NCBI RefSeq assembly: GCF_016862375.1 | Contig: NZ_BOMV01000048.1 | Location: 62,001-126,000 of the forward strand | Direction: 5' to 3' | Origin: Paractinoplanes rishiriensis | Lineage (GTDB): Bacteria > Actinomycetota > Actinomycetes > Mycobacteriales > Micromonosporaceae | Length of the DNA: 64,000 nt | In this document: piece by piece, positions 14,003 to 64,000 of the stretch | How positions within the stretch are numbered: position 1 is the first letter of the stretch | Layout: each line of letters begins with the position of its first letter | The notes under the pieces: model-generated | What the model was told of the DNA's origin: nothing | Database searches by the model: none | Seen by the model: only the letters and a program-made list of their open reading frames with translations | Translations under genes and position numbers: made by a program

Positions 14003-14108
14003 TCTCCCCGGCGCCGGGCAAGCGGACAGCGCGCCCGGCGCCGAACGGGGCGAGGGTGAAGTAGCCTGCCCCGGGCCCGTCGGGCCGGTCGGTGTGTGGG
14101 AGGTAGTG

Positions 14109-15236: not shown

Positions 15237-15279
15237 GGGTTGCCCCCTGCGCATCGACGTAGACCCCTAGAGTGACACC

Positions 15280-38959: not shown

Positions 38960-39718
38960 GTGACTGCTGCCGTCAGCCGCCGGTTCCTCTCGGCCGAGAT
39001 CGTCATCGTTCTGCTGCTCTCGCTCGGGCAGTCCGCGTTCTATGCGGTGGTGTCGCTGATCGCCAAGCTCACCGCCGACAAGCCGCTGAGCCAGCAGTCC
39101 GCGGTGCTCAACGCGTCCCAGTCGTCCCGGCCGTACCTGGACCTCACGTACCAGCTGCTCGGGATCTTCTTCTCCCTGGTGCCGGTGGCGCTGGCAATTC
39201 ACCTGCTGATGCGCGACCGCATCAACCCGTGGCGCACCCTCGGCCTCACGGCCGATCGACCGGGCTTCGACGCGGGCTGGGGCACGTTGCTGGCCGCCGG
39301 CATCGGGATTCCCGGGCTGCTTCTGGTGTACGCGGCGTCCGCGCTGGGCGTCAACGCGCAGATCGTCCCGGCCGCGCTAGAGCAGGTGTGGTGGGCGATC
39401 CCGGTCCTCATCCTGGCCGCCGTCGAGAACGCGGTGCTGGAAGAGGTGATCGTCGTCGGCTACCTGATGACCCGTTTGCGCGAGATGACCGTGCCGATCG
39501 GCTGGATCATCGTCTGCTCGGCCGTGCTGCGCGGCTCGTACCACCTCTACCAGGGCTTCGGCGCGTTCGTCGGCAACGCGGTGATGGGCGTGGTGTTCGC
39601 CCTCTTCTTCCTGAAGTACAAGCGCGTGATGCCGCTGATCGTCGCCCACACGATCCTCGACGTGGCGGCGTTCGTCGGCTACACCCTCCTGCCGAAGTCC
39701 TGGCTCACCTGGCTGTGA
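38960..39718 (+). CDS. CPBP-family intramembrane metalloprotease (CaaX-type/Rce1-like)
   Basis: 252 aa, about eight membrane helices. Rce1/CPBP motifs: ENAVLEEVIVVGYL (catalytic EE with Arg downstream), RGSYHLYQG (His) and AHTILDVAAF (H..D). Bacterial CPBP proteases process lipidated or membrane proteins or confer bacteriocin immunity; no such partner is next to it. Its end overlaps the EcsC-like gene by 14 nt on the opposite strand. Confidence 0.9.
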   Translation: MTAAVSRRFLSAEIVIVLLLSLGQSAFYAVVSLIAKLTADKPLSQQSAVLNASQSSRPYLDLTYQLLGIFFSLVPVALAIHLLMRDRINPWRTLGLTADRPGFDAGWGTLLAAGIGIPGLLLVYAASALGVNAQIVPAALEQVWWAIPVLILAAVENAVLEEVIVVGYLMTRLREMTVPIGWIIVCSAVLRGSYHLYQGFGAFVGNAVMGVVFALFFLKYKRVMPLIVAHTILDVAAFVGYTLLPKSWLTWL

Positions 39719-49312: not shown

Positions 49313-52069
49313 CTAGAAGCTGGACCTCAGCTTGACGTGGATGTCGGTGGCGCCCTGCTGGTCCTGTTCGTCGAGGATGTCCACCGCCGCCTGCCACGCC
49401 ACCCGGGCCGCCTTGGCGTCGCCCGCCGCGTCGTGGGTGTCGCCAAGGCGGTCCAGGGTGTCCGCCTCGCCGCGCCGGTCGCCGAGCCGGCGGTAGAGGT
49501 CGATGGCCCGGCCGTAGTCGGCGATCGCATCCGGGTATTCGCCCAGGTGGTGCCGGGCGTAGCCGAGGCTGTCCCAGGTCGCGGCCGCGCCGGGCAGGTT
49601 GCCGATCTCCTCGTCCAGGACCAGGGCCTGCTTGCAGATGGTCAGCGCCGACTCGTGCTCGCCGCGCTGGATGTGGCACCAGGCGGCGGCGCTCAGGGCG
49701 TCCGCCTCGCCGGCTCGGCGGCCGTTGGCGCGGTACAGGGCGATCGCCTGGCCCAGGCTGTCCAGCGCCGTGTCGTACTCGCCCTGTTCGGCATAGCTGT
49801 GCGCCAGCGTCATGTGCGCGAACGCGGCGAGAGGGCCGGCGCCCAGTTCACCGGCCAGCGCGATGGTCTGCCGCAGGTGCGTACGGGCCTCGTCGAGACG
49901 GCCGAGCCGGATCGCCGCGGTGGCCAGGAACCGGTGCCCGTGCACCTGGCCGGTCCGGTCGTCCGCGTCGCGGGCGGCCGCCAGACCGATCTGCTGTGCC
50001 GCGAACCATTCCTGCCAGTGGCCCTGGCGTTCCATGAAGGTGGCCAGCGCCCAGACGAGCTGCCAGGAGTGCACGGGAAGCCCGATCGCGGCGGCCTGTT
50101 CCACCGCGGCGAGCAGCACCGCGCGCTCGGCGACGAACCAGGTCAGGGCTTCGGCGTGGTCCGTGAAGCGTTCCGCCGTCACGCCGGGGTCGGCCGCCAC
50201 CAGCGCGATCTGATTCCGGTGGCGATTGAGCAGCATGGTGGCCGCGCTTGCCGAGTGCAGGAGATGACCGAGTACGCGGCGCTGCGCCGCGAGCCGGTCG
50301 GCCGGGGCGTCCAGCGACCCCGAAAGCTCGGTCGCATAGGCGCGCAGCAGGTCGTGCATCGCGTACCTGGCCTGGGAATGCTCAGCCACGAGATGAGCGC
50401 GAGTGAGCTCCACCAGCAGTGGCCGCACCTCGCTCGTCGGAACGCCGGCCAGACTGGCCGCGGCGGCGAGCGAGAGATCGGGGCCGGCCCGCAGCCCGAG
50501 CAGGCGGAACAGCCGGCCGGCCGCGGGACTGAGGATGCGGTACGACCAGGAGAACACCGCGCGGACGTCGGCCACCCGCTCGCCGCCGTCGAACGCGTCG
50601 AGCCCACCCAGGTCCGCGGCGAGCACGCCCAGCGACCGGACCGGGTTGGTGACCGCGCGGGCCGCCACGATCGCCAGGGCCAGCGGCAGTCGCGCGCAGG
50701 ACGCGGCGATGCGGTCCACGGCTTCCGGCTCGGCCGCGGCGCGAGTCGTGCCCAGCCGGCCGGCGAGCAGTTCCCGGGCCTCGTCCGCCGGCAGCAGGTC
50801 GAGCGGCACCGGGTGCGCGCCCTCGATGGCGACCAGCCCGGACAGCTGGTCGCGGCTGGTCACCACGACCAGGCAGCCGGGCGTGCCGGGCAGCAGCGGG
50901 CGGACCTGCTCGGCCTCCCGGGCGTTGTCCAGCACCACCAGCACCCGGCGGCCGGCGAACATGCTGCGGTACAGGCTTTCCTGCGCGGCCGGCGAGCTCG
51001 GGATCCGCTGCGGCGGCACCTGCCAGCCGTCCAGGAAGGCGCGGACCGCCTCGGCCGGCCGCATCGCCGAGCCGCCCGGGTCGAAGCCGCGCAGGTTCAG
51101 ATAGAGCTGCCCGTCCGGGAAACGCGCGGCGACCTGATGGGCCCAGTGCACGGCCAGCGCGGTCTTGCCCACGCCCGCGGTGCCGGACACCACGCAGATC
51201 GGCACGGCGGGTGGCGTGCTGCCGGCCAGGACCGCGTTCAGCTCGGCCAGCGCCTCGGTGCGGCCGGTGAACCCCCGCACGCCTACCGGCAGCTGGGCGG
51301 GCACGTCGGCCCGGGGCTTCGCCGGCGACTCCAGGTCGCCGCGGAGGATCGCCTGGTGCAGTTGCCGCAGCTCAGTGCCCGGATCGGTGCCCAGCTCCTC
51401 GGCCAGCTGCTGCCGGACGGTCGTGTAGTGGTCGAGTGCCTCCGCCGCGCGCCCGGCCGCGTACTGTGCCCGCATCAAGGCCGCTGCCAGCGGCTCCACC
51501 AGCGGATACTCGGTGACCAGCCCGCTCAGCCGGGCGATCACCGCGCCCGGGTTTCCGGCCCGGGTCTCGGCCGGTCCCCAGTCCACGACGGCGTCCAGCC
51601 ACTGCTGCCGCCAGCTTTCCCGCATCCGGTCGGCCCAGGCTCCGGTGAGTCCGGCGAGAGGTTCGGAAGACCACAGATCCAATGCCGTACGCAGCAGCAC
51701 TGCGCGCTCCGGATCGTCCGGGTCGAGCCGGCGTGCCCGGTCGACGAGGCGCTGGAACCGGTGCAGGTCGACGGTGTCCGGCTCGGTGTCGAGCAGGTAG
51801 CCGCCGGCCCCGCGCAGCAGCCGGACCGGTTCGGCACCGTCCGCCGCCGCCTCCAGCAACCGCCGGATCCGGGTGATGTGCGTGTGCAGCGTCCGGCGGG
51901 CCTGCGGCGGCGGCTGCCCGTCCCAGACCCGGTCGACCAGCGTGTCGACCGGCACCGCCCGCCCGGCGTCGACCACGAGGACGGCCAGCACCGCGAGCTG
52001 CTGCCGGCGCGCCGCCTGACCGCACACGAGGGTGTCAAGCGGGCCCAGAATCCGGAAATCCATCCTCAC
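49313..52069 (-). CDS. SARP/AfsR-type transcriptional regulator with NB-ARC and TPR domains
   Basis: 918 aa. OmpR-like winged helix (residues about 3-95), BTAD domain (about 96-245), NB-ARC ATPase with Walker A GTAGVGKTALA and RVLVVLDNA as Walker B, and C-terminal TPR repeats (HMTLAHSYAEQGEYDTALDSLGQAIALYRANG, ALDEEIGNLPGAAATWDSLGYARHHLGEY type). Such SARP proteins activate secondary-metabolite or morphological genes. The GTG is chosen with an AACTAT -10-like element 6 nt upstream. It is divergent from a secreted DUF2690 protein. Confidence 0.92.
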   Translation of the reverse strand: MRMDFRILGPLDTLVCGQAARRQQLAVLAVLVVDAGRAVPVDTLVDRVWDGQPPPQARRTLHTHITRIRRLLEAAADGAEPVRLLRGAGGYLLDTEPDTVDLHRFQRLVDRARRLDPDDPERAVLLRTALDLWSSEPLAGLTGAWADRMRESWRQQWLDAVVDWGPAETRAGNPGAVIARLSGLVTEYPLVEPLAAALMRAQYAAGRAAEALDHYTTVRQQLAEELGTDPGTELRQLHQAILRGDLESPAKPRADVPAQLPVGVRGFTGRTEALAELNAVLAGSTPPAVPICVVSGTAGVGKTALAVHWAHQVAARFPDGQLYLNLRGFDPGGSAMRPAEAVRAFLDGWQVPPQRIPSSPAAQESLYRSMFAGRRVLVVLDNAREAEQVRPLLPGTPGCLVVVTSRDQLSGLVAIEGAHPVPLDLLPADEARELLAGRLGTTRAAAEPEAVDRIAASCARLPLALAIVAARAVTNPVRSLGVLAADLGGLDAFDGGERVADVRAVFSWSYRILSPAAGRLFRLLGLRAGPDLSLAAAASLAGVPTSEVRPLLVELTRAHLVAEHSQARYAMHDLLRAYATELSGSLDAPADRLAAQRRVLGHLLHSASAATMLLNRHRNQIALVAADPGVTAERFTDHAEALTWFVAERAVLLAAVEQAAAIGLPVHSWQLVWALATFMERQGHWQEWFAAQQIGLAAARDADDRTGQVHGHRFLATAAIRLGRLDEARTHLRQTIALAGELGAGPLAAFAHMTLAHSYAEQGEYDTALDSLGQAIALYRANGRRAGEADALSAAAWCHIQRGEHESALTICKQALVLDEEIGNLPGAAATWDSLGYARHHLGEYPDAIADYGRAIDLYRRLGDRRGEADTLDRLGDTHDAAGDAKAARVAWQAAVDILDEQDQQGATDIHVKLRSSF

Positions 52070-52175
52070 CCATCGATAGTTAACAAATGGTCAAGCGTTC
52101 GGCCCACACATCCGTCGCAAGGTTTACATCGGCGGAGCCACGGGGGTTCCGCCGACTCGTGAGGGGAACACCACC

Positions 52176-52694
52176 ATGAAGTGGTTCCGCCTACCGCTCG
52201 CTCTGCTCAGTTGTCTCGCCATGGCCGGGGCCGCCGCCACCACCGTCGTCGTCGCCACGGCCGGCCCGGCCAGCGCCGCGACCTGCTCCGGCAACGGCTG
52301 CAACGGCACCGACCCGCAGGCCACCGGCTGCTCCGCGAACGCCATCACGCTGTCCTCGGCCCGCATGATCACCATCCGTACCGGCGACGACGTCGGCTCG
52401 ATCGAGATGCGCTACAGCCGCACCTGCCGCACCCAGTGGATCCGGGTGACGAGCCGGATCACCGACTGCTCGGGCGACCCGTGCACGAACATGGCTCGCG
52501 TCCGGCGGCCCGCGGGCGCCGACGGCGGGGCGATCTCGTACCAGGACAACGGGCGGCCCAACTCGGGCGCGGTGAGCCAGTGGTCCCGGCAGGTCTACAC
52601 CCCGAACACCCGATCGTGCGGGACGGGCGCGATCGATACCGGGAACGACACCGGTGTTCCCAACCGCGTGAACGGCGCGGAGATCTGCGGCTGA
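52176..52694 (+). CDS. Secreted DUF2690 family protein
   Basis: 172 aa. Signal peptide about 1-36, mature domain with eight Cys, starting CSGNGCNGTDPQATGCSAN, as in DUF2690 proteins that often accompany XRE or SARP regulators in actinobacteria. ATG 52176 has GAGGGGA 8 nt upstream. It is the only gene of the spacer shared with the SARP regulator, so it may be its target. Function unknown. Confidence 0.85.
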   Translation: MKWFRLPLALLSCLAMAGAAATTVVVATAGPASAATCSGNGCNGTDPQATGCSANAITLSSARMITIRTGDDVGSIEMRYSRTCRTQWIRVTSRITDCSGDPCTNMARVRRPAGADGGAISYQDNGRPNSGAVSQWSRQVYTPNTRSCGTGAIDTGNDTGVPNRVNGAEICG

Positions 52695-52899
52695 CCGGCC
52701 GGGGGGGGGTCACGCCGGCCGGAGCCTGCCACGAGCGGGCCCCGGCCGGCGGCTGTCAGATTGTCCACAGTAGAGAATTGGACGGGTTACGCGAAAGGCC
52801 AGGTCAGGCGCATCCTTTCGGGTACCCGACCCGTTGTACCGCCGAGTAGTCACCGACCTGGACAAAAAGGAGAGCCTTTCAGGGGTTCCCTCAATCATG

Positions 52900-52915
52900 A
52901 TCCAAATTGGATACT
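52900..52915 (+). promoter_or_regulatory. Palindrome overlapping the -10 of the NB-ARC/TPR gene
   Basis: ATCCAAATTGGAT (52900-52912) is a perfect inverted repeat around a single A. GATACT (52910-52915) lies 6 nt before the GTG and overlaps it. A repressor bound here would block a leaderless promoter. A copy (ATCCATATTGGAT) lies at 56138-56150. Confidence 0.6.
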
Positions 52916-52921
52916 CATCGG

Positions 52922-55915
52922 GTGAAAGACTCGGCGCGAGTATCCGCTGAGGCCGGCCGCGACGCTTTGGCGCGCCTGTTGGCCGCAGTTCCAGCAGCCC
53001 AGTTGGCAGCCGTCGCGCGCGACATCTTCCCGTTCCTGCCACTCCCAGCGGCGTTCGACTGGACCGACGGCCGGGTCGTCGTTGACAAGATCGCCTCGCT
53101 GGACCCGCCGTTCACCGGCGTGCCCCCGCTGGTGGCCTATGCGACGCGCCTCTCGCACGAGGTCGGGCGGCTGGACGCGGTAGGCCTCGGGCGCTGGGCC
53201 GACGCGGCCGGGCGTGAGGCCGGCATGAGCGAGGAACGGGTCCGGCAGCTGTACGCCGAAACAAGTCCCGCGAGTCGAAGTCCCGATCCCGCCCTGTCCG
53301 CAACCGCAGAAGGTTATCCTACTAAAGGCCATAAAACGGACATAGATTCGCGGAGCGAGGACTTGGTGTCACCCCTCAGCACGATTTCCGGCTCCGCCAC
53401 CGCTGCGGTGGAGCAGTCGGACTCCGGGCGCATCTGGGGCAACGTCCCACCGCGCAACCCGGACTTCACCGGCCGAGAGAGCCTTCTGCTCAACCTGCAG
53501 CGCTCCCTGGAGGCCAAATCCAAGGCGTCGGTGCTGCCGCACGCGCTGCACGGCTCGGGCGGGGTCGGCAAGACCCAGCTGGCCGTCGAGTTCGCGTACC
53601 GGTTCGGTGAGCGCTACGACCTGGTCTGGTGGATCCCGGCGGAGCAACAGACGCTGGTGCTGCAGTCACTGGCCGAACTCGGCCAGAAACTGCGCATCCC
53701 GGGCACCCAGGAGTTCACCCAGGCGGCCTCGCTGGTGATCGAGGCGCTGGCCCGCACCGACCTGCGCTGGCTGCTGGTCTTCGACAACGCGAACGACCCG
53801 AACGAGCTGGCACACCTGATCCCGTCGTCGGGCGGGCACGTGATCCTGACGTCGCGGAACCCGGCGTGGCTCGACGTCTGGGACGCGGTCAAGGTCGACG
53901 TCTTCGACCGGCCGGAGAGCATCGAGCTGGTTCAGCGCCGGGGCACCGACATCACCGATGCGGACGCCGACCGGCTGGCCGAAAAGCTCGGCGACCTGCC
54001 GCTGGCCCTCGACCAGGCGGCGTCCTGGCAGACCGCCACCGGGATGACCATCACCGAATACCTCGACCTGTTCGACCAGCACCACGGTGAGCTGGTCGCG
54101 CGCGGACGCGACATCAACTACCCGGTCAGCATCGCCGCGCTGGTCAAGCTGGCGCTGGAGCGGCTGCAACGGGACTCGCCGGCGCTCGCCCAGCTGCTCG
54201 AGATGTTTGCGGTGTTCGGTGCCGAGCCGGTCTCCGTCGGCCTGCTGCGCCGGGGCCGGCTCGGTGACATCGCCCCACCGCTCGGCCGTGCCCTGCGTGA
54301 CTCGACCAGGCTCGACCGGATGGCTCGTGACCTGCGAAAATTCGGACTCGCCAAGGTCGACGTCGAAAACCGGATCCAGGTGCACCGCCTGCTGCAGGTG
54401 GCGCTGCGCGACGTCCTCGACGGCGAGCGGCTCAACCGGGCCCGGACGAACGTCCACCGGCTGCTCGGTGCGGCCAACCCCGGTGACCCGAACGTCGACA
54501 GCACCCTCGAGCTGCACGCCGAGATCGCCCCGCACGTCAACCCGTCGGGCCTGATCTACGCGGCCGAGGAGGACAGCCGCCGCATCGCCCTCGACCAGAT
54601 CCGGTACCTCTGGATCATCGGTGACAACGAGGGTTCCCGCCGGTTGGGCGAGGCCGCGGTCAAGGCCTGGCGCGAACGGGCCGACCAGCCCGATCTCGGC
54701 CCGGACGGCGAGCTGACGCTGCTCGCGACCCGGCACCTGAGCACCACGCTGCTCTCCCTGGGCATCAACGACCGGGCGCGGGAGCTGGCGGAATCGACCC
54801 TGGACCGGCTCCGCAACAATCCGGACTTCGGACCGGACCACGAGCACACGCTCTGGACCGCGGCCACCGTCTCGGCGGCGCTGCGGGTGGCGGGCGAGTT
54901 CCAGAAGGCGCTCGAACTCGAACGCGAGAACGTCGAGCTGTACGTGGAGGTCTTCGGCGCCGAGGACGTCCAGACGCTGCGTAACCGGGGCAACCTCGCG
55001 GTCAACCTGCGCATGCTCAGCGACTTCCAGGGCGCCTTCGAGATCGACGAGGAGATCGTCCAGCGGCTCGACGAGACGCTGACCGAGCAGGCCCGTCCGC
55101 TGCTGTTCGCCCAGTCCAACCTCGTGCGCGACCTTTACGGCCTGGGCAAGTACGACGAGGCACTGGCGCTGCAGCGGCGCACTCTGCCGACGTACCGCCG
55201 GACGATGACCGACCGGCACCCGGAGGTCCTGCTCGCGACCCGCACCTTCGCCATGGCGCTCCGCAAGACCGGTAAGTACGACGAAGCCCTCCAGGTCGCG
55301 CGGGACAACTACCGCGACTGCGTGGCCCGGTACGGCGAGGCACACCAGCACGCGCTGGCCGCGACGATGACGTACGCCAACACGTTGCGTGTCGCCGGCA
55401 GCCTGAGCGAGGCCCGCGGCCTGGCGATGGACGCGCTGGCCCGATACCGCCGGACCTTCGGCGACCGGCACCCACTGACCCTGGTGGCGCAGGTCAACGC
55501 CGCGGTGATCCAGCGCAGCATGAAAAACCTGGCCGAGGCGCAAAAGCTCGACAGGGACGCGTACGAGGCCATGGCCGACATCCTGGGTGTCAACCACGGT
55601 TACACGCTGTGCGCGGCGAGCGGGCTGGCCAACGACCTGGCCCTCGTCGGCGATGTCCAGGGCGCCTACCGCTGGTCGAGCGAGACGTTGGGCATCTCCC
55701 AGCAGTCGCGCGGTCCGGACCACCCCTACACGCTGCTGTGCGCGGTAAACGCCGCCTTCGACCGGATCGAGGTCGGCGAGGCCGCGGAGGGCGAGGAAGA
55801 CCTGGCCACGGCGGTCGAGGCGCTGGGCGAACTGCTCGGTGCCACTCACCCCGAGACCCTCGACGCCCGGATGGGCCGGCGCGCCGAGTGCGACATCGAG
55901 CCGCCGCCCACCTGA
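52922..55915 (+). CDS. NB-ARC/TPR protein, FxSxx-system FxsT-like
   Basis: 997 aa. Residues about 1-115 form a helical adaptor-like domain (VAYATRLSHEVGRLDAVGLGRW), followed by an AT-rich linker (DNA 53310-53350). NB-ARC begins at NVPPRNPDFTGRESLLLNLQRSL, with P-loop GSGGVGKT at 211-218 and LRWLLVFDNAND as Walker B. TPR repeats fill about 560-980. The C terminus is CDIEPPPT, nearly the same as in the second TPR gene (CDIEPPPF). The FTGR...VWWIPAEQ pattern is that of FxSxx-COOH TPR proteins. Role may be regulation or chaperoning of peptide maturation; inference. GTG 52922 is read as leaderless. Confidence 0.85.
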   Translation: MKDSARVSAEAGRDALARLLAAVPAAQLAAVARDIFPFLPLPAAFDWTDGRVVVDKIASLDPPFTGVPPLVAYATRLSHEVGRLDAVGLGRWADAAGREAGMSEERVRQLYAETSPASRSPDPALSATAEGYPTKGHKTDIDSRSEDLVSPLSTISGSATAAVEQSDSGRIWGNVPPRNPDFTGRESLLLNLQRSLEAKSKASVLPHALHGSGGVGKTQLAVEFAYRFGERYDLVWWIPAEQQTLVLQSLAELGQKLRIPGTQEFTQAASLVIEALARTDLRWLLVFDNANDPNELAHLIPSSGGHVILTSRNPAWLDVWDAVKVDVFDRPESIELVQRRGTDITDADADRLAEKLGDLPLALDQAASWQTATGMTITEYLDLFDQHHGELVARGRDINYPVSIAALVKLALERLQRDSPALAQLLEMFAVFGAEPVSVGLLRRGRLGDIAPPLGRALRDSTRLDRMARDLRKFGLAKVDVENRIQVHRLLQVALRDVLDGERLNRARTNVHRLLGAANPGDPNVDSTLELHAEIAPHVNPSGLIYAAEEDSRRIALDQIRYLWIIGDNEGSRRLGEAAVKAWRERADQPDLGPDGELTLLATRHLSTTLLSLGINDRARELAESTLDRLRNNPDFGPDHEHTLWTAATVSAALRVAGEFQKALELERENVELYVEVFGAEDVQTLRNRGNLAVNLRMLSDFQGAFEIDEEIVQRLDETLTEQARPLLFAQSNLVRDLYGLGKYDEALALQRRTLPTYRRTMTDRHPEVLLATRTFAMALRKTGKYDEALQVARDNYRDCVARYGEAHQHALAATMTYANTLRVAGSLSEARGLAMDALARYRRTFGDRHPLTLVAQVNAAVIQRSMKNLAEAQKLDRDAYEAMADILGVNHGYTLCAASGLANDLALVGDVQGAYRWSSETLGISQQSRGPDHPYTLLCAVNAAFDRIEVGEAAEGEEDLATAVEALGELLGATHPETLDARMGRRAECDIEPPPT
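53310..53350 (+). other. AT-rich linker in the NB-ARC/TPR gene
   Basis: Within the gene, the codons for GYPTKGHKTDIDSR are much AT-richer than the surroundings. They fall between the N-terminal domain and NB-ARC, which fits a domain fusion point. Confidence 0.4.
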
Positions 55916-55931
55916 CGGCCGTTCGCGACGT

Positions 55932-55958
55932 TCCCGCAGGCTGATCCGGCCTGCGGGA
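55932..55958 (+). terminator. Terminator hairpin after NB-ARC/TPR gene
   Basis: TCCCGCAGG / CCTGCGGGA stem with a 9-nt loop, 17 nt after the stop. Confidence 0.6.
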
Positions 55959-55976
55959 CCTCATCGCGCCCGCTTC

Positions 55977-56005
55977 ACGGGTCCGTAACGACGCTACGGA
56001 CCCGT
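55977..56005. terminator. Second hairpin
   Basis: ACGGGTCCGTA / TACGGACCCGT perfect 11-bp stem. It may be a back-up terminator. Confidence 0.6.
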
Positions 56006-56119
56006 TCCATCGCTCAAGCGCTGCCGACTTCCAGGAATGCGGAAGCCGCCAGGCTGCCCTCTCGCGAAGCCGTCCCCACCTGCGCATATGCGGGTCGCGG
56101 ACGAGCATGTGCGCTTCGC

Positions 56120-56213
56120 GGGGTTCCTGCCTCATGATCCATATTGGATAATTGGTTGAGGCGTCCAGCGGTGTGATCCGCCGCTGAGGTTGACCGCGAC
56201 GCTTTGGCGCGCC
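56120..56213 (+). repeat. Diverged copy of the NB-ARC/TPR promoter and first codons
   Basis: This 94-bp segment matches 52882-52976: GGGGTTCC, TCATGATCCA-x-ATTGGATA, ATCCGC, GAGG and CCGCGACGCTTTGGCGCGCC occur in the same order. The copy carries GATAAT at 56147-56152, a better -10, but lost the reading frame. It is a partial duplication that could drive the next ORF. Confidence 0.7.
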
Positions 56214-56214
56214 A

Positions 56215-56259
56215 GCTCCCGATGGACGGGAGCGACCCCCCGGCCAGGAGGTCGCTCCC
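56215..56259 (+). promoter_or_regulatory. Mutually exclusive hairpins (attenuator-like)
   Basis: GCTCCC/GGGAGC (56215-56233) and GGGAGCGACC/GGTCGCTCCC (56228-56259) share the GGGAGC. They cannot form together, and they precede a short membrane ORF. Confidence 0.4.
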
Positions 56260-56274
56260 TGTCCGCACGAATCC

Positions 56275-56583
56275 ATGACAAGGCCCGCAGAAGACCAGTC
56301 GACAAGATACGGACGGAATATGGGCACGGTATCGAAACAGGATGACCCGAGCCAAGGGAACGACCACAAGAGGCAGGTGGTCACCTTGGTGATCACCCTC
56401 GGTTTCGTGGTCCTCGTGGTGGTCGCGGGCACCGCGTTCGGGCTCAGCGGCACCGACATCGGCGCGATCCTCGCCGGAACGGGAGCCCTCCTCGCAGCCC
56501 TCATCGGCACCGGCATCCATCAGGGCCGGGGCGGCGGAAACGGCGCGCCGCGAGGGGCGACCGACGGGCGTGGTGACCGCTGA
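56275..56583 (+). CDS. Small single-pass/hairpin membrane protein
   Basis: 102 aa. Hydrophilic N terminus, two adjacent hydrophobic segments (VVTLVITLGFVVLVVVAGTAF and GAILAGTGALLAALIGTGI), Gly/Arg-rich tail. No family recognised. ATG 56320 is an alternative start giving 87 aa. It follows the duplicated promoter and an attenuator-like leader and lies just before the convergent RiPP operon, so it may belong to the locus. Confidence 0.6.
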   Translation: MTRPAEDQSTRYGRNMGTVSKQDDPSQGNDHKRQVVTLVITLGFVVLVVVAGTAFGLSGTDIGAILAGTGALLAALIGTGIHQGRGGGNGAPRGATDGRGDR

Positions 56584-56639
56584 GGCGGACGACCTCCGCG
56601 TGCCGGCCCGTGCCGGCGGTGCAGGGCGTCACCGTGAAG

Positions 56640-56669
56640 CCGCCTACCCAGCGTTACCGAGGTAGGCGG
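56640..56669. terminator. Terminator between membrane ORF and RiPP operon
   Basis: CCGCCTACC / GGTAGGCGG 9-bp stem with 12-nt loop, placed 34 nt after the last gene of the minus-strand operon. Confidence 0.65.
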
Positions 56670-56703
56670 CCGATCGGTCAGGCCCGGGGTGACCAGCCAG
56701 AAA

Positions 56704-56886
56704 TCAGGGCGCGTTGCCGAACGCTGCGTATTTCTCGTCCTTCGCTGCTTCTTCGGTCACGCGGCGTACAGAATTCCCGAGGACGTCGCCGCTGTTATTC
56801 AGTAACTCTTGTAAAGATTCGGCGGAAACGTTGAGAAGCCGTGGGGAGTCGTTCGATTCCGGCGACGGTGGAACGTTTTCGGACAT
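56704..56886 (-). CDS. RiPP precursor-like peptide ending FGNAP (FxSxx-type variant)
   Basis: 60 aa. The leader holds PRLLNV (15-20), like the PRLLDV of the next peptide. The C terminus is KYAAFGNAP with F56-G57-N58 five residues from the end. In FxSxx-COOH precursors the rSAM enzyme FxsB links the aromatic residue to the third residue of F-x-S; here Asn replaces Ser, which is still among the residues used by three-residue cyclophane enzymes. GGAGG lies 4 nt before the ATG. Small, well-formed, last in the operon. Confidence 0.8.
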   Translation of the reverse strand: MSENVPPSPESNDSPRLLNVSAESLQELLNNSGDVLGNSVRRVTEEAAKDEKYAAFGNAP

Positions 56887-57015
56887 GCTGCCTCCACTGC
56901 CTTTGCGGCGACCAGCGGCTCAACACCCGACAACCTCGGCGACCTCGGCGAATGCCGGCGCGATGTGCCTCCCGACTGCGACGCAACCGCCGCCCGGAGA
57001 CCTGGCGGCATCGCA

Positions 57016-57291
57016 TCAGCGTGGCGACCCGTCCGACTCCGAACCCCACGATACTTTGACGTTCAGCTCTTTCCCACCCCTCGCCTGATCCGGTGTTTCG
57101 GTCGGATCCATAACGGGACTGCTGCTGTGCGCCGCGTAGTTCTGTGCCCCGTACGACGCCTCTTGCCGGACCCGCTCAACCGCCCTGTCGAACGCGGTGT
57201 CTTTACGGTCGATAAGGTTTTCCAGCGGGACGTCAAGTAGTCGCGGGAGTGCGGTCACCTCATCGTCGAGGGGACGGTCGGAAGATGACAC
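57016..57291 (-). CDS. Second RiPP precursor-like peptide with HSSSP core and extension
   Basis: 91 aa from GTG 57291 (AAGGA 6 nt upstream; a TTG-initiated form reaches 57339). PRLLDV (16-21) and NYAAHSSSP (51-59) align with PRLLNV and KYAAFGNAP of the neighbouring peptide, with His replacing Phe and Ser replacing Asn. A tail of 32 residues follows, with another aromatic three-residue motif W82-G83-S84. Candidate core crosslinks are H-S-S, Y-G-A or W-G-S. Whether the tail is removed is unknown. Confidence 0.75.
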   Translation of the reverse strand: MSSSDRPLDDEVTALPRLLDVPLENLIDRKDTAFDRAVERVRQEASYGAQNYAAHSSSPVMDPTETPDQARGGKELNVKVSWGSESDGSPR

Positions 57292-57470
57292 GATGATCCT
57301 TTCCGAGCTCGGCGATCGCCCGTGCAGGCGACCGGACAACGAGGTCGTATGAAAGGCGTTCCGGCTCTGGGAATCCGGGACGCTCGATGTACACAGCTAC
57401 GAAGAGGCCGACGTGCTAGATCACAAGGATGACGCACGTTTTGCTTCTGGTGTTGCCGCTTGGGTAACGA

Positions 57471-58691
57471 TCAGCAGGGCCCGGCGCGCCCGGGGGTGAC
57501 CGGCGCGTCGAGAAGCCGTCGCAATGAGGTACCCAGGACCTCCACGAACTCGGCGCCGGCCACGGTCAGCTCTCGTGAAGCCGCCAGTGACCGGTAGGCG
57601 ACGCTTACCTGCTCGCGCAGTTCAGTGAACTGGGCGCACGCCACCTCGGCCAAGTCGGGCTCGGCGGCGAGGCGCCGCCACGCCTCGGCGACGTGCAGGA
57701 AGGCGAAGACTCCTTGGAAGAGCCCCGAGGTGGGTCGTTTGTCCTTCTTCCAAGGAGCGTGGTGCCGTTCGGTACCGCCCGGCCGGTAGAGCGGCTCGAC
57801 GTCGATCACCGCGCTCAGCTTGGAGTGGGCGAACTCGTGCACGATCGTGACGGCGAAGTCCTCGGCTGAGGCCGGCCGGCTCACCCCCATGGCGCCGACC
57901 GACTCGCGGGCTGTCGCGCTGCGTGACGACCGGTCGCGCATGTCGGCAAGCGGCACCACGGCCCGTAACCCGAGCGCGATCTCGGTGGCGCGTTCCGGCA
58001 GGTACCGGCAGATCAGCTGCCAGGCGCGGTCGAACTGTTCCTGCCAGTAGGCGGCCTCGGCGTCGTCGAGCCGCTCGCTGGGGGGCGCGTGGTAGCCGTC
58101 GCGATACGGACTCGCGTCCTCAAGGCGTACCGAACACTCCTGTCCGCCGTGCCGGGCGCGCAACCGGCGCAGCGGCCACCACGTGACGCCCTCGACGAGG
58201 GCGGTGGCGACACCCGAGGCACTCGTCACCGTGAGGCCGCCCGAGGTGTCGATGCGGACCGGCCCGGACGCCTCGTCGTCGAGAACGGCCGTACCCAGGG
58301 TGGGCAGCACCATCCGGCCCCGGTGCGCCCAGCCGGTCACCCGGCAGCCGCGACCGGACTCCACGGCGGCGGCCGCGGCGAGGTTGCCCAGCTGGAGGAA
58401 TTCCCCCGGACGAGATTTCTCCCGGCTTGTCCGGCTCAGCCACGCGCCGACCATCGGGTCGCCGATCAGCCGCGCGATCCGGTCCGGGTCGGCGTCCTGG
58501 CAGGCGGCCAGCACGGCCACCGCGGTGTCGCGCTCCGCCGGCTCGCCGAGCCAGCTTCTGACGATGTGGACGAGAAGCAGCAGGTGAATGCTGACCCGGC
58601 TGGCATTCAGCTCGGCGATCGCCGATACGTCACCGGCGCCGCCGGCCAGTGCCGCGAGCTGATCCGAGGTCAGGCGGTGGTAGTCGTTCAC
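57471..58691 (-). CDS. HExxH-type peptide beta-hydroxylase-like enzyme
   Basis: 406-aa protein with HEFAH (H285, E286, H289), then PLYRPGG, HHAPWKKDKRPTSG and GVFAFLHVAEAW. This order (HExxH, PW..D.RP..G, AF..V) is the signature of HEXXH-domain proteins that accompany FxSxx systems. Related proteins are reported to be 2-oxoglutarate-dependent beta-hydroxylases of RiPP peptides rather than metalloproteases. GTG 58691 overlaps the rSAM stop (GTGA), so translation is coupled. The long form to 58736 is not needed. Confidence 0.82.
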   Translation of the reverse strand: MNDYHRLTSDQLAALAGGAGDVSAIAELNASRVSIHLLLLVHIVRSWLGEPAERDTAVAVLAACQDADPDRIARLIGDPMVGAWLSRTSREKSRPGEFLQLGNLAAAAAVESGRGCRVTGWAHRGRMVLPTLGTAVLDDEASGPVRIDTSGGLTVTSASGVATALVEGVTWWPLRRLRARHGGQECSVRLEDASPYRDGYHAPPSERLDDAEAAYWQEQFDRAWQLICRYLPERATEIALGLRAVVPLADMRDRSSRSATARESVGAMGVSRPASAEDFAVTIVHEFAHSKLSAVIDVEPLYRPGGTERHHAPWKKDKRPTSGLFQGVFAFLHVAEAWRRLAAEPDLAEVACAQFTELREQVSVAYRSLAASRELTVAGAEFVEVLGTSLRRLLDAPVTPGRAGPC

Positions 58692-59920
58692 GCCGGATCG
58701 TGCGTGGGAAGCCGTTCCAGGTCGGCGATGACACACGTCCGGATGTGCCGAATCAGCTCGAGCATGTCAGCACAGTAGACGGAAGGGTTTCGGAACCCGC
58801 GTCCGGCTCGGTACCTGTGCGCGTAGTGACCGCCGCCACAAATCTCACGTGACGGGCAAGCGCGGCAGGTGTCGCCGAGCGCGGCCAGACCGATCTGGCG
58901 AGCCACGATACCCGGGTGGTCGAGCGCCGCGTCGAAGGAGTCGGTCAGCACGTTCAGTCCGGTGTCGCAGGCGCCCGGGAAGGCCGACTTGAGCGAGTCG
59001 ACCTGCTCGATCGCGCCGTCCGTCTCGACCACGACGACCGCGACCGGGCTGAGACCGACCTGTTCGGACCGGCTCGTGCCGCCGAGGAGGAGCGCCAGCA
59101 CGTCCTCGAACAGGCGGATGCCGACCTCCTGCCGCGGCGCCCGATACCACCGATCAAAAACGGCGATCAACCAATCGGCGTACGGGGTGGGCCCGGCGCC
59201 CGGCGGGCGGGCCGGCGGTGTCTGCCAGTTGGCGTGCGGCAACAGAAGGTCAAGTGTCGGCGGCCGGTAGTCGAGCAGCGCCTCGTAGGTGGCAATCGGA
59301 TCGGTCGCCGGGTCGATCGTGCACAGCAACCCGGCGAACGAGTCGCGGTGTTCCTCGCCGGCGAGCAGACGCAGCGCGCGGTCCACGGCGTCGAAGCTGC
59401 CCCGCCCGTTGGCGTGGCGTCGCCGCCGGTCGTGATCGGCCCGGGCGCCGTCCAGGCTTACGCCGATCTCGACCCGGTGGTCCCGCAGCGCGTCCAGGGT
59501 GGCCCGGTCGAGCAGTACGCCGTTCGTCTGCATCTGGACCCGCAGATCGACACCGTCGCAGGCGGTCCGGAAGCCGGTGATCAGGGTCGCCAGCCGGTCC
59601 ATCCCGGTGAGCAGCGGCTCCCCACCGTGTAGCACGAGCCGCATCCGGTCGAGCCGATGCGTGCGGGCGAACGCGCCCATCCGGTCGGCGGCCGCCCGCC
59701 AGACCGGCTCCGCCATGAACACCGGCTTGGTGCGCCAGGACTGGTCGGCCATCTCGTACACGTAGCAGTAGTCACAGGCCAGATTGCAGCGCTGATGGAC
59801 CTTCAGCACCACGTCCCGGAAAGGGACCGGCGTGTGCCCGGCCGGGACGTCGAGCCCCCGGAACGGCCACTCGGATGCCCCGGTGACCAGGGGCAGCACC
59901 GAGGAACGTTCGGTGGGCAT
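58688..59920 (-). CDS. FxsB-family radical SAM/SPASM peptide maturase
   Basis: 410 aa. [4Fe-4S] SAM motif CNLACDYC (C45, C49, C52); VLHGGEPLL for SAM binding; C-terminal SPASM-like domain with CDTGLNV, CRACPSREICGGGHYAHRYRAG and NPSVYCADM. This layout is FxsB-like. Such enzymes crosslink an aromatic side chain to the beta-carbon of the third residue in a three-residue motif (cyclophane/triceptide). ATG 59920 has GAGGGA 6 nt upstream. It shares its end with the HExxH gene, with both precursor-like genes downstream. Confidence 0.9.
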   Translation of the reverse strand: MPTERSSVLPLVTGASEWPFRGLDVPAGHTPVPFRDVVLKVHQRCNLACDYCYVYEMADQSWRTKPVFMAEPVWRAAADRMGAFARTHRLDRMRLVLHGGEPLLTGMDRLATLITGFRTACDGVDLRVQMQTNGVLLDRATLDALRDHRVEIGVSLDGARADHDRRRRHANGRGSFDAVDRALRLLAGEEHRDSFAGLLCTIDPATDPIATYEALLDYRPPTLDLLLPHANWQTPPARPPGAGPTPYADWLIAVFDRWYRAPRQEVGIRLFEDVLALLLGGTSRSEQVGLSPVAVVVVETDGAIEQVDSLKSAFPGACDTGLNVLTDSFDAALDHPGIVARQIGLAALGDTCRACPSREICGGGHYAHRYRAGRGFRNPSVYCADMLELIRHIRTCVIADLERLPTHDPA

Positions 59921-59975
59921 GATGTCCCTCTCTGGCCGTCGGCGTCCGATTAGAGCTTACGGGCGGCGGTCCATG

Positions 59976-62819
59976 CTAGAACGGCGGCGGCTCGATGTCG
60001 CACTCCCCACGTTCCCCCCGCGCCGCCGCCCGCACCTGCGGATGCTCCGGGCCCAGCGCCGTACGCAGAGCGTTGAGAGCGGGCTCGAGGAGCGCGTTGG
60101 CGCCCTGCGGGTCCTGCTCCCGGGTGATGATCCCCAGGTTGATCGCGCAGATGAGCATGTCGGGGTGCTGGTCGCGCTTGGCCGCGCGGGCGTTCTCCAG
60201 CGTGGTGCGCAGCAGCCGGGCGGCCCCCTCGACGTCGTTGTTCACCACCAGGTCGTTCGCGAGCCCGACCGCCGCGGCGTGCACGTACGGGTGGCTGACG
60301 CCGACCCCGTCCAGCAGCTGCCGGTACGCGGACTCGCAGGTGCGGCGGGCGGTGTTCCGCTCGCCCATCATCCGCAGGATGATCGCGTGGTTGACCGCGG
60401 CGGCCAGGGCCACCGGGTTGGTCTCACCGAACCGGGCGCGATAGGTGTTCACCGTGCGCAGGCTGGTGGTGTACGTGAGCAGAGGTGCATCGGGCAGCCG
60501 GGCGGCCACCGCAACCCGGACCGCGTTCGCGTACGACATCGCGGCGGCCAGGGTGTTGCCGTTCTCGGAGCCCCACTCGCCCTGGCAGATCAGGTGATGC
60601 TGCTGGCTGGCCTTCAGGGCCTCGGCGATCCGGCCGGCCTTACGCAGCGCGATCGCGGTCGTCCGCGCGGCCAGCATCACGCTCGGGTGCCGCTCGCCCA
60701 GCTGGTCGCGCATCGCCGGGAGCATGTCCTCCTGCAGCTGCAGCACCTGCTCGTACTTGCCGAGGCCGAACAGGTCGCGGGCCAGGTTGGAGATGGCGAA
60801 GTGGGTGCGGTAGTCGTTCTCGCCGTGCGCCTGCCGCCAGAGGCGTACCAGGTCCTCGTCGATCTCCCGAGCCTTGTCGAACTCGCCGATCGCGCGGTGG
60901 CACAGGGCCATGTTGCTCCGGGCGCGCAGCAGCTCGACGTTGTTCGCGCCGCGGGTCCGCTGGTAGTACTCGATGCGGTAGCGCTCCAGGTTGGCGGCCT
61001 TGCCGTAGCTGCCGAGAATCCGGCTCACCATGGCCACGCCGTTCGCGGTCCGGGCGGTCCGGTCGTTGTTGGCGCCGAACCTCTCGTGGTTGTTGAGCCG
61101 GGTCCAGGCCATGTCGTAGAGCCGTTCGGCCTCGGCGTAGCGACCGAGAGCGACCAGGTTGAGCGCGTACCGGTCGATGCAGGCGAAGGTCTCGTCGTCG
61201 TCCCAGACATCGCCGGGGCCGGCCCACGCGCGCCGGGCCTCCGCGGTCAGCCGCAGGCTGCCGTCGAAGTCGCCGAGCAGGTACAGGTACCGGATCTGGT
61301 CGAGCACGACCCGGCGCATCGGCCGAGCCGCGTTCTCCACCAGGCCGGTCGGACCGATGTGCTGGCCGATCTGGGCGTGCATCTCCCAGGTCAGCGGATC
61401 GTCGGGGTCGTGCGGGTTGGCGGCGACCAGCAGCCGGCGGGCGTTGTCGTAGGCGAGCTGCCGGTCCGGGCCGAGCAGCGAGTCGCGGACGACCAGCTGG
61501 ACCAGCCGGTGTACCTGCACCTTCTGGCCGCCGTCGGCCGCGGTGAGCAGGCCGTACCGCTCGAGCAGCTGCAGCGCCGCCTCCAGCTGGGCGTCCTGGG
61601 CGAGCACCCGGCCCAGCGGCGGCGGGATGGAGTGCTCCGCCGCGGTACGCAGTAGGGCCGGCGAAACCGGCTCGGCGCTCAGGCAGGACAGCATCGCGAG
61701 CAGCTGGCCCGCACCCGCCGAGACCCGTTTCACCTCGTCGAACGCGAGGCCGAAGGCGCCGGCCACGGTCTCCGGGTAGTCCCGTGCCTGACCCTGGCTC
61801 AGCACCGCGGTGGCCTGGCGGTCGAGCCGTCGCAGGTATTCCGGCACCGAGACGTTGGTGGCCGCTCGCATCGCGGACGCCTGCTCGAGCGCCAGCGGCA
61901 GGTCGCCCAGCCGGTCGGCGAGCAGGTCGGCGTCGTCGAAGCTGATCCGGCTGTTGCGTTGCAGCAGGGCGATGCTGTCCTGCCGGGGCAGGACGCCGAC
62001 CGGCACGGTGCGGCCGTACTCGTTCCAGCTGCCGTCGCGGGTCGTCACGATCACGGTGCCCCGGCCGGCGGTCGGCAGGAGTTCGCGGATCTGCTCCGGC
62101 CCGATCGCGTTGTCGTAGACCAGCAGCCAGCTGAACGAGGCGCTCTCCAGCGCACCGAGGAGGTTGAGCACGGTCTGCCCGATGTCGGACTGGCTGATCT
62201 CGACCGTCTCGGACAGGCGGTCGGCCAGCGCCGCCAGCGCCGAGCGGGTCCGCGCCACCTGCTCGGCGACGATCCACCAGACCACGTCGTAGTGGTGACC
62301 CTCGCGGTGCACGAACTCGGCGGCCAGGCTCGTCTTGCCGACACCGCTGAGGCCGTGCAGGATCATCGGCCGCCAGGACTCGGAGTCGGACTCCGAGTCG
62401 GACTCCGGCGCGGACTTCATGCGTTCGAGCAGGTCCTCGCGGCCGGTGAAGCCGGGTTTGCGGGGCGGCACCGAACCGTTCGGCAGTTCCGTCGGGTGCG
62501 GTGTCTCGGGCTCGACAGTGGCGACCGGGCTCGGCGGCGCGCTGGCCCGGCTCTCGTTCCACAGGGCGAGGAAGCGCTGCACCTCGGCCTGCGGGTCGGG
62601 ACGGTGCGCGGCCATCTCGGCCAGCACCCGGACCACCGGCTCCACCTTGCTCCATTTCGGGGTGGCGGTGCCGCTCAGCAGACCGTTCACCGTTTCGTGG
62701 CTGACCTTCTCGGTCATCTCGTCCCGATCGCGGATTTCACCGCTGATCCGGCGGTACGACGGTTGACCGGCGGCCCGCCAGAGAATGCGTAACTGCGCAA
62801 CGAGATCTTCATGCGGCAC
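59976..62819 (-). CDS. NB-ARC/TPR protein with HTH-like N terminus, FxsT-like
   Basis: 947 aa. Residues 1-95 look like an XRE-type domain (LVAQLRILWRAAGQPSYRRISGEI ... HETVNGLLSG). NB-ARC from GSVPPRKPGFTGREDLLERM, P-loop GLSGVGKT at 156-163, WLLVYDNA as Walker B. TPRs about 450-930 (LGRYAEAERLYDMAW, RAIGEFDKAREIDEDLV, LGKYEQVLQLQEDML). C terminus CDIEPPPF. GTG 62819 has GGGGAG 9 nt upstream. First gene of the operon, 55 nt before the rSAM gene. May sense or regulate the peptide; FxsT function is not established. Confidence 0.88.
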   Translation of the reverse strand: MPHEDLVAQLRILWRAAGQPSYRRISGEIRDRDEMTEKVSHETVNGLLSGTATPKWSKVEPVVRVLAEMAAHRPDPQAEVQRFLALWNESRASAPPSPVATVEPETPHPTELPNGSVPPRKPGFTGREDLLERMKSAPESDSESDSESWRPMILHGLSGVGKTSLAAEFVHREGHHYDVVWWIVAEQVARTRSALAALADRLSETVEISQSDIGQTVLNLLGALESASFSWLLVYDNAIGPEQIRELLPTAGRGTVIVTTRDGSWNEYGRTVPVGVLPRQDSIALLQRNSRISFDDADLLADRLGDLPLALEQASAMRAATNVSVPEYLRRLDRQATAVLSQGQARDYPETVAGAFGLAFDEVKRVSAGAGQLLAMLSCLSAEPVSPALLRTAAEHSIPPPLGRVLAQDAQLEAALQLLERYGLLTAADGGQKVQVHRLVQLVVRDSLLGPDRQLAYDNARRLLVAANPHDPDDPLTWEMHAQIGQHIGPTGLVENAARPMRRVVLDQIRYLYLLGDFDGSLRLTAEARRAWAGPGDVWDDDETFACIDRYALNLVALGRYAEAERLYDMAWTRLNNHERFGANNDRTARTANGVAMVSRILGSYGKAANLERYRIEYYQRTRGANNVELLRARSNMALCHRAIGEFDKAREIDEDLVRLWRQAHGENDYRTHFAISNLARDLFGLGKYEQVLQLQEDMLPAMRDQLGERHPSVMLAARTTAIALRKAGRIAEALKASQQHHLICQGEWGSENGNTLAAAMSYANAVRVAVAARLPDAPLLTYTTSLRTVNTYRARFGETNPVALAAAVNHAIILRMMGERNTARRTCESAYRQLLDGVGVSHPYVHAAAVGLANDLVVNNDVEGAARLLRTTLENARAAKRDQHPDMLICAINLGIITREQDPQGANALLEPALNALRTALGPEHPQVRAAARGERGECDIEPPPF
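62378..62409 (-). repeat. Short SDSE-coding microsatellite
   Basis: GACTCGGAGTCG units encode ESDSESDSES in the second TPR protein. They lie in the linker ahead of the P-loop. Confidence 0.7.
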
Positions 62820-63339
62820 CTGTCACGCTCCCCATAAGTACGCCCGCCCGCCACGCCGGACCACCGCTCGTCAGCGGTTGCGAGGAGCGGATTGCCCGCC
62901 CTCGCCACTCCGTGCCAGAAACTGTCAAGTTCTGAAAAGCAGCATTCCACAAGAGAGCGTTCCGACGACAGCCCGTAAAGTTTCGGCAGTTAGCGATTAG
63001 GACGTCTCCGTTGACCGCCGTCGATCTTTGGTGGCGCTGATCACTTCGCTGGCCGGGCACGCTTCCTGCCGTCCCGACCAGGACTTTTCCCTCTGCTGCC
63101 GATCTTTCCGGCCGCCTTTTCGATCTCGGTTCGCAACAGAACCGGAGCGATTCCCAGAGCACCCTCGTTCGGCTCCTTCGGTACGTCCTGTGGTGGACGG
63201 ACGGGGGGTCGCCGGGCCGGGAAGGGCCTGGTCTCCGGTACTGAACGCCCGGACACTCGTCCCCCGCAACCCCGCGATGTCGGCCAATCGGGCAAATCAC
63301 GCCGACTGTCAAGCAACGACAAGTGGATGAGGGCGGCCG
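62820..63339. other. Divergent intergenic region
   Basis: This 520-nt spacer lies between the RiPP operon and the LRR gene. It holds a minus-strand TTGACA at 62928-62923 without a clear -10, and no supported ORF. Confidence 0.45.
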
Positions 63340-64000
63340 ATGCATGTGGACAGTCACCGGTACGGTCGGTGGGTGGTAGATGACTGGGCGTCCTCGTCCC
63401 GATTCGAGCAGGATATCCAGGCCGTCGCCGACGGCCGATCGGACACGCTCGATCTCGGCCGCAGTTACCACTATGGTGCGCCCCGCGAACTACCCGCCGC
63501 CGTTCGCCAACTGACCGGGCTGCGTACGTTGCGGCTGGGCGGCAGCGGCCTCACCGCGCTGCCGGGCTGGCTGGCCGAGCTGCCGGTGGAGACGATCGAC
63601 GCGCGTGGGTGCCCGCTGCAGGAGATGCCGCCGATGCCCTGGGTGCGGTGGGCGCTGGACGCCGGCAAGCTGTACGCGTTCCGCCGGCTGATCGACCCGG
63701 GCCGGGTGTACGGCGCGGCCATCGGGCCCGGTGACGACGCCCCGGCCATCGCGCACCTGGGCCGGTTGATCGGTGAGCGCCGGCTGAGCCTGACCGAGCT
63801 GGTGGTGGAGACGCCGCGGGGGATGCCGTCGGCGACCTGGGCCAACCTCGCGGAGGTGGACCGGCACCTGGACGAGTTGATCGCGGGGCTGCCGCGGCTG
63901 CGGATGTTCGGGATCGTGGACTGTCCGCTGGGCCGGGTGCCGGAGCCGATTCGCCGGTTGCGCCATCTGAGCAATCTGCGGTTGTCCGCGGTGCTGCCCG
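63340..64000 (+). CDS. Leucine-rich-repeat protein, truncated by window end
   Basis: From ATG 63340 an open frame of 220 codons continues to the window edge. Repeats: LPAAVRQLTGLRTLRLGGSGLTALPGWLAELPVETIDARGCPLQEMP, and later IAGLPRLRMFGIVDCPLGRVPEPIRRLRHLSNLRLSAVLP; the segments spell the LxxLxLxxNxL-type pattern. No signal peptide is seen. GAGGGC lies about 7 nt upstream. LRR proteins mostly mediate protein contacts. It begins 520 nt from, and divergent to, the RiPP operon. Confidence 0.8.
   Translation, partial: MHVDSHRYGRWVVDDWASSSRFEQDIQAVADGRSDTLDLGRSYHYGAPRELPAAVRQLTGLRTLRLGGSGLTALPGWLAELPVETIDARGCPLQEMPPMPWVRWALDAGKLYAFRRLIDPGRVYGAAIGPGDDAPAIAHLGRLIGERRLSLTELVVETPRGMPSATWANLAEVDRHLDELIAGLPRLRMFGIVDCPLGRVPEPIRRLRHLSNLRLSAVLP

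Follow-up and report, generated by a model that had tools for sequence, protein, structure and literature searches.

A predicted FxsB-family cyclophane peptide operon with phenylalanine- and histidine-type precursors in Paractinoplanes rishiriensis

A five-gene operon lies on the minus strand of a 64,000-nucleotide stretch of the Paractinoplanes rishiriensis genome (assembly GCF_016862375.1, contig NZ_BOMV01000048.1, positions 62,001 to 126,000; hereafter the window), where genes for an NB-ARC/tetratricopeptide repeat (TPR) protein, an FxsB-family radical S-adenosylmethionine (SAM)/SPASM enzyme, an HExxH-motif enzyme and two small peptides, A2 and A1, follow one another in this order. The reading that we favor, with a probability of roughly 75%, is that of an FxsB-family operon of Actinoplanes/Paractinoplanes for cyclophane-containing ribosomally synthesized and post-translationally modified peptides (RiPPs), in which one enzyme set would mature two products. 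By analogy with characterized enzymes, this soil actinomycete gene set probably closes rings in two short peptides and hydroxylates them; its neighbors include genes resembling sensors of the immune kind. The two cores are distinguished by sequence, one being [Y/F]-A-A-F-G-N-x-P (Phe type) and the other Y-A-A-H-x-S-S-P (His type).

All five genes are present where an initial annotation of the window had placed them, strand included. The first encodes a STAND-type protein of 947 amino acids (aa; 59976..62819) with NB-ARC and TPR_12 domains (Pfam), which matches the FxSxx_TPR family NF040586 at 698.5 bits against a cut-off of 300. The peptide maturase (58688..59920, 410 aa) falls inside the FxsB family, with 473.5 bits to the NCBIfam model TIGR04269 (cut-off 370), and the third protein (57471..58691, 406 aa), a predicted stand-alone alpha-ketoglutarate-HExxH peptide beta-hydroxylase, matches TIGR04267 (mod_HExxH) at 156.9 bits (cut-off 40). 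With all three families above their NCBIfam cut-offs, the earlier assignments of these proteins, and the resemblance to the FxSxx-COOH gene set drawn from them, are supported. The longest open reading frame (ORF) of the HExxH gene extends to 58736; its likeliest start is the GTG at 58691, from which the 406 aa are counted and which overlaps the FxsB stop codon by four bases (GTGA). FxsB and HExxH are thus separate overlapping ORFs rather than a fusion, and the fusion model NF040587 (FxsBH) yields 151.7 bits, compared with a cut-off of 225. A2 (57016..57291, 91 aa) most likely begins at GTG 57291, because its counterpart in P. aksuensis (G061) has an identical start and length; the far TTG at 57339, which opens the longest ORF, was set aside in its favor. 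A1 (56704..56886, 60 aa) begins at ATG 56886, preceded by a Shine-Dalgarno-like GGAGG.

A1 and A2 have homologous leader peptides. A1 terminates in the core YAAFGNAP-COOH, which is FxSxx-like, with Phe at position -5 from the C-terminus and Asn replacing Ser, and the A2 core, YAAHSSSP, occupies residues 52-59 and is followed by a 32-residue tail; neither peptide therefore ends in F-x-S-x-x, A1 closing with F-G-N-A-P and A2 with H-S-S-S-P plus the tail. Both contain an aromatic-x-[N/S and the like] motif (F-G-N in A1, H-S-S in A2) that recurs in relatives. They had been called divergent precursors, and the FxsA profile TIGR04268 indeed scores them at 23 bits (A1) and 18.1 bits (A2), below its cut-off of 28. 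The same small ORFs are found in the nearest relatives with this operon: in P. aksuensis both lie downstream of the HExxH gene (YAAHSSSP plus tail, and FAAFGNTP), and in Actinoplanes solisilvae (G065) YAAHGSSP and YAAFGNVP, each followed by a tail, are encoded on the opposite side of the operon, directly behind a leucine-rich repeat (LRR)-Roco-TIR gene and on the same strand as that gene. Comparison with P. aksuensis gives ratios of nonsynonymous to synonymous substitution rates (dN/dS) of 0.42 for A1 and 0.39 for A2. Because leader and core recur in both genomes, and because across 63 stretches of DNA (the window, L009, L040-L079, L085 and L126-L145), a profile of leader and core that started from peptides of this kind gathers 54 members (E<0.003), A1 and A2 are, judged by their sequences, not chance ORFs.

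Among these 54 members are 15 His-type precursors from nine FxsB-HExxH operons of Micromonosporaceae, which span four genera by genome codes or five by names. The window, P. aksuensis and A. solisilvae each contribute one His-type peptide, and two each come from G024, Asanoa siamensis (G084), Phytohabitans suffuscus (G201), P. flavus (G233), Virgisporangium aurantiacum (G219) and Phytohabitans maris (G244); in the stretches examined, the latter six operons encode His-type peptides only. FxsB and HExxH genes adjoin in all nine (the stretches having been picked by FxsB or HExxH matches). The Y-A-A-H block is invariant in 15/15 of these peptides, followed at i+1 by Ser (7), Gly (7) or Asn (1) and at i+2 by Ser (8), Thr (4), Asn (2) or Gln (1), and Phe-type peptides mostly retain F-x-[N/S]. 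The precursor at L056 has an unread stretch and was neither anchored nor included in the comparison at position -3 given below, and the peptide at L064 carries Trp in place of Phe.

That YAAH peptides always stand beside FxsB and HExxH is ruled out by P. maris, where two other places encode four additional peptides, three of them YAAH and one YAAR (longest ORFs L244:6919-7626 and L245:6563-6856, 13497-15803 and 14087-14269). The 16 and 19 kb fetched around them contain no FxsB, HExxH, TPR or Roco match, further FxsB genes elsewhere in that genome not having been searched for. The YAAH class is thus not bound to the operon, and these orphan peptides may be served in trans.

A first His-type profile matched 51 of 250 family genomes (E<=0.001), with many weaker matches unread; those weaker matches that lie in the stretches read (e.g. 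in G010, G019 and G021) are Phe-type. A larger profile (E<=1e-6) matched two of 298 genomes of the order, P. rishiriensis itself and G441, and one of 396 genomes of the phylum, again P. rishiriensis. G441, the candidate outside the family, proved on reading to be Phe-type (ADFDN). No YAAH peptide was found outside Micromonosporaceae in these two samples, into which the other genomes known to be His-type were not drawn, so that they do not gauge how rare the class is. A separate FxsA-like peptide of Streptosporangium pseudovulgare (L243:12475-12660) ends in VAGHQSSV, an otherwise canonical-looking FxSxx frame in which His replaces Phe.

Both enzymes look intact at the sequence level. FxsB carries the CxxxCxxC motif as CNLACDYC (residues 45-52), and its nearest solved radical SAM structure is ChlB (9gm3, 245.7 bits). 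The HExxH motif reads HEFAH and is invariant, together with a downstream A-P-W-x-x-D-x-R-P, in 34/34 aligned sequences including that of the window, an alignment from which loci labeled as lacking a peptide of the class and fragments shorter than 300 aa were excluded. A sequence search of the HExxH protein against solved structures returned 22nu/22ob (170.9 bits) and ChlH (8s5f, 41.1 bits). An AlphaFold2 model, based on 19 aligned sequences from the window and the loci (mean predicted local distance difference test score 90.4), matches SjiH (22ob), which we take to be a radical SAM-fused HExxH enzyme, in Foldseek with a template modeling (TM) score of 0.86, 32% identity and E 8.8e-26, and the ChlH chains of 8s5f with TM 0.56-0.59 and E 6.7e-12; besides SjiH and ChlH, no solved structure was matched at E<=0.001. 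In PADLOC, FxsB matches pVip models (47.6 bits), which we take as general radical SAM likeness, and neither the HExxH protein nor the two TPR proteins of the region gave a match.

These kinds of enzyme are common, since FxsB-like proteins occur in 94/200 relatives (E<=1e-60) and HExxH relatives in 175/250 family genomes (E<=1e-20); at E<=1e-60, the P. rishiriensis genome yields a single FxsB-like match. A first contig scan with the HExxH protein gave 28 pattern matches, of which none was confirmed as a relative; a second, with an alignment of eight His-type FxsBs, gave 314 related stretches, of which the best 80 were retained. FxsB relatives at L043, L044, L046, L047, L049 and similar loci are at most 68% identical to the window FxsB and have neither an HExxH match nor a recognizable FxSxx-type peptide nearby.

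The chemistry proposed for the operon is modeled on relatives. Excerpts of one study (PMC11002830) describe a bond of Phe C4 with Ser C-beta for MscB, of Phe C4 with Asn C-beta for XncB/OscB, and of His C2 with Ala C-beta for HaaB, and excerpts of another describe a radical SAM-fused HExxH enzyme that beta-hydroxylates Asp and His and requires a preinstalled cyclophane (PMC12636437). We infer a corresponding sequence of events here, in which the common leader would dock on FxsB, which would abstract a beta-hydrogen from residue i+2 and connect the C-beta of that residue with the ring of the aromatic residue i. By analogy, the cross-link would join Phe56 and Asn58 in A1, giving a three-residue cyclophane, and His55 and Ser57 in A2, probably via imidazole C2; the HExxH enzyme would then beta-hydroxylate the cyclized core in the manner of ChlH, which acts on His and Asp. 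The InterPro entry of MscB is presumably the FxsB family. In RRNPP-type signaling, short peptides are recognized by TPR domains. As a guess from gene content, the two products probably serve as intracellular or quorum-type ligands for the TPR domains of two STAND ATPases, one in the operon and one beside it.

On a tree of 61 FxsB sequences, the nine His-type enzymes cluster. They require two label changes (shuffled mean 8.6; 0/500 shuffles as low) and lie within a starred group of 21, which also includes four Phe-type enzymes (Catenuloplanes) and eight from loci without such a peptide found; the FxsBs of the window, P. aksuensis and A. solisilvae form a starred clade. Only four FxsB columns are fixed in His-type enzymes and rare (<=3/26) in Phe-type ones (M81, M93, L95 and F117), all of them conservative swaps.

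Several observations weigh against a cyclophane RiPP operon with two products. His-type FxsBs cluster on the tree yet do not form one clade; both precursors remain under the FxsA cut-off, and the A2 motif is not C-terminal; the Thr and Gln found at i+2 in four and one of the 15 His-type peptides are not named as partners for relatives in the excerpts of the literature available; P. maris has YAAH peptides, and a YAAR variant, without FxsB or HExxH nearby; no protease or exporter family exceeded its cut-off among the eight proteins of the region that were scanned; and no product of the operon is known.

In the likeliest of the rival readings, His-type operons might cross-link both Y-A-A and [H/F]-x-[S/N], making the core a bis-cyclophane (Tyr-Ala, then His-Ser or Phe-Asn). 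An aromatic residue at position -3 from the His/Phe is present in 18/18 peptides of His-type operons (Y 17, F 1) and in 1/35 peptides of other operons (Fisher p 3e-13, a value that ignores kinship and, the rows being related, overstates independence), and the four additional P. maris peptides likewise carry Tyr at -3. Excerpts of PMC11002830 add that HaaB bonds His to Ala in H-A-A and that ScaB bonds Tyr to Ala once the His has been replaced by Tyr, and the title of a reference in PMC12636437, likewise seen in excerpt, terms ChlB a multiple cyclophane synthase. However, the Tyr may merely be a recognition or cleavage residue, and a wider set of peptides (in which the core anchors of some weak matches, e.g. 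L198, L223 and L224, are unreliable and were not used) includes Phe-type peptides with Trp or Phe at -3, such as WAGFDN (Actinomadura) and FAAFQS (Asanoa). These examples weaken the idea that an aromatic -3 is exclusive to His-type operons, and because of them we retain the bis-cyclophane as a less likely alternative to the single cross-link that we prefer.

It is unlikely that FxsB leaves the His of A2 without a cross-link, with the HExxH enzyme acting alone on A2 and FxsB serving A1 and another peptide, ending in FNSAV, that is encoded elsewhere in the genome. That peptide belongs to a second FxSxx locus (L009:8390-14374; G000:C35), which encodes this canonical precursor, an HExxH protein and an FxSxx_TPR protein and in which no FxsB was found; the window FxsB may serve this locus in trans. 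The presence of a locus of this kind in a genome with a single FxsB-like match (E<=1e-60) is compatible with such a division of labor, as is the activity of HExxH-type enzymes in systems without a described radical SAM partner (excerpts of PMC12636437). Against it, the six His-only operons retain FxsB adjoining HExxH, and in relatives His has been shown to act as a donor in cyclophanes (excerpts of PMC11002830).

The W-G-S of the A2 tail could be read as a further core, since it fits an aromatic-x-Ser pattern and since A2 and its P. aksuensis counterpart agree in all of their last 14 residues, but this reading is very improbable and was dropped, there being no such motif in the A. solisilvae tail or in other His-type tails and the conservation lying at the DNA level. 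Synonymous divergence (dS) from P. aksuensis is 0.106 in the last 20 codons of A2, compared with 0.377 for A2 as a whole, 0.633 for FxsB and 0.847 for A1, and identity continues for about 40 bases beyond the stop codon. Because silent sites are frozen and identity reaches past the stop, conservation of the tail does not speak for another core; the near-identical block (56977..57076, minus strand), comprising the end of A2 and those bases, is a DNA-level element. RNA folding of 56940-57090 is unremarkable (z -0.9).

A second FxSxx_TPR (NB-ARC/TPR) protein is encoded convergently with the operon (52907..55915, plus strand; 875.2 bits to NF040586) and has an N-terminal match to VMAP-M0 (PF19916, 27.8 bits; cut-off 25.9), which excerpts of PMC8195603 mention among the domains of predicted conflict systems. 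Its homologues adjoin a number of FxsB-HExxH loci. The two TPR proteins of the window (52907-55915 and 59976-62819) both terminate in ECDIEPPP[T/F].

Divergent from the operon, a gene for a 1020-aa LRR-Roco-TIR protein starts inside the window and runs past its end (63341..64000, plus strand; L146:341-3403), with matches, besides the LRR, to Roc (79.0 bits), COR-A (137.8), COR-B (104.3) and TIR_2 (45.0); the TIR part gives weak PADLOC matches of 20.1 and 16.5 bits. The statement that the window contains no FxsC-like gene is literally right, though this gene begins within it; the FxsC profile TIGR04276 matched nothing in the genome, nor did it in control genomes. Counterparts are operon-adjacent in P. 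aksuensis (82% identical, reported with one in-frame TGA) and A. solisilvae (62%), so that the gene adjoins 3/3 operons with mixed Phe and His peptides. Matches at E<=1e-60 occur in 10/67 genomes of the genus. None was found in the stretches of the six pure His-type operons, and no operon gene was matched around the LRR-Roco-TIR gene in four other genomes of the genus (the G057 stretch stops at a contig end, and three weaker matches were not fetched); these two results rule out the gene as an obligate part of the system. A speculative and rather doubtful extension is that peptides of the YAAH class end up as a tandem bis-cyclophane (Tyr-Ala, then His-Ser/Thr) carrying a hydroxyl, and that this product would act, together with the Phe product in mixed operons, as the ligand setting the state of a module resembling nucleotide-binding leucine-rich repeat (NLR) receptors, composed of the NB-ARC/TPR ATPases and LRR-Roco-TIR, the RiPP thus serving as an internal immune or developmental signal.

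As a kind, FxsB-type cyclophane RiPP systems are already known. The operon resembles FxSxx-COOH systems (NCBIfam FxsA/FxsB/FxSxx_TPR; MscB-type triceptides) in its above-cut-off FxsB and TPR proteins, its homologous leaders and the Phe at -5 of A1, and differs from them in the Asn for Ser of A1, the His for Phe and the tail of A2, and the sub-cut-off scores of both peptides. With the radical SAM-fused HExxH enzymes (ChlB/ChlH, SjiH) it shares the two enzyme domains, the HExxH fold being closest to SjiH, but the domains are encoded here by two separate overlapping genes, and the likeness is drawn from enzymes, not from precursor sequences. As in the His-type triceptides of HaaB/ScaB and YhhB, His is the predicted aromatic donor of a three-residue cyclophane; unlike them, the operon has YAAH-x-[S/T] where they have H-A-A or a His-Arg link, and it includes an HExxH partner. 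The HaaT TPR model NF041717 scores 28.2 bits here (cut-off 1125).

What is new is the YAAH class itself, its occurrence alongside a Phe peptide, and the LRR-Roco-TIR neighbor in 3/3 mixed operons. In the open-access literature searched, this variant, with its conserved YAAH core, an operon that combines Phe with His peptides, a stand-alone HExxH enzyme and a Roco-TIR neighbor, was not found, prior notice being possible. If the prediction is correct, FxsB-type cyclophane chemistry would extend to a conserved His core, as H-x-Ser and also as H-x-Thr, where the cross-link would hit a more substituted carbon. The operon would provide one enzyme with two natural substrates, one with Phe and one with His; its stand-alone HExxH partner should lend itself to assays more readily than fused enzymes; and the company of NB-ARC/TPR and, in three genomes, LRR-Roco-TIR proteins makes the purpose of FxSxx peptides testable through gene deletions.

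Searches for transcription signals revealed no sigma-70-type promoter in 56600-63400, and a T-run scan listed two terminator-like sites, equal to the shuffled mean. A hairpin behind A1 (56636..56676, minus strand; z -5.0), a possible transcript end that is absent from that listing, has a counterpart in P. aksuensis (z -5.5). Rfam yielded a single sub-threshold match over 52000-64000 (E 0.29), far from the peptides. Elsewhere in the window, a DUF2690 protein with a signal-like N-terminus is encoded just upstream of the convergent TPR gene (52176-52694, plus strand), and a Pro/Ala-rich low-complexity ORF with tandem repeats (39705-41387, minus strand) coincides with a strong AT skew at 40-42 kb.

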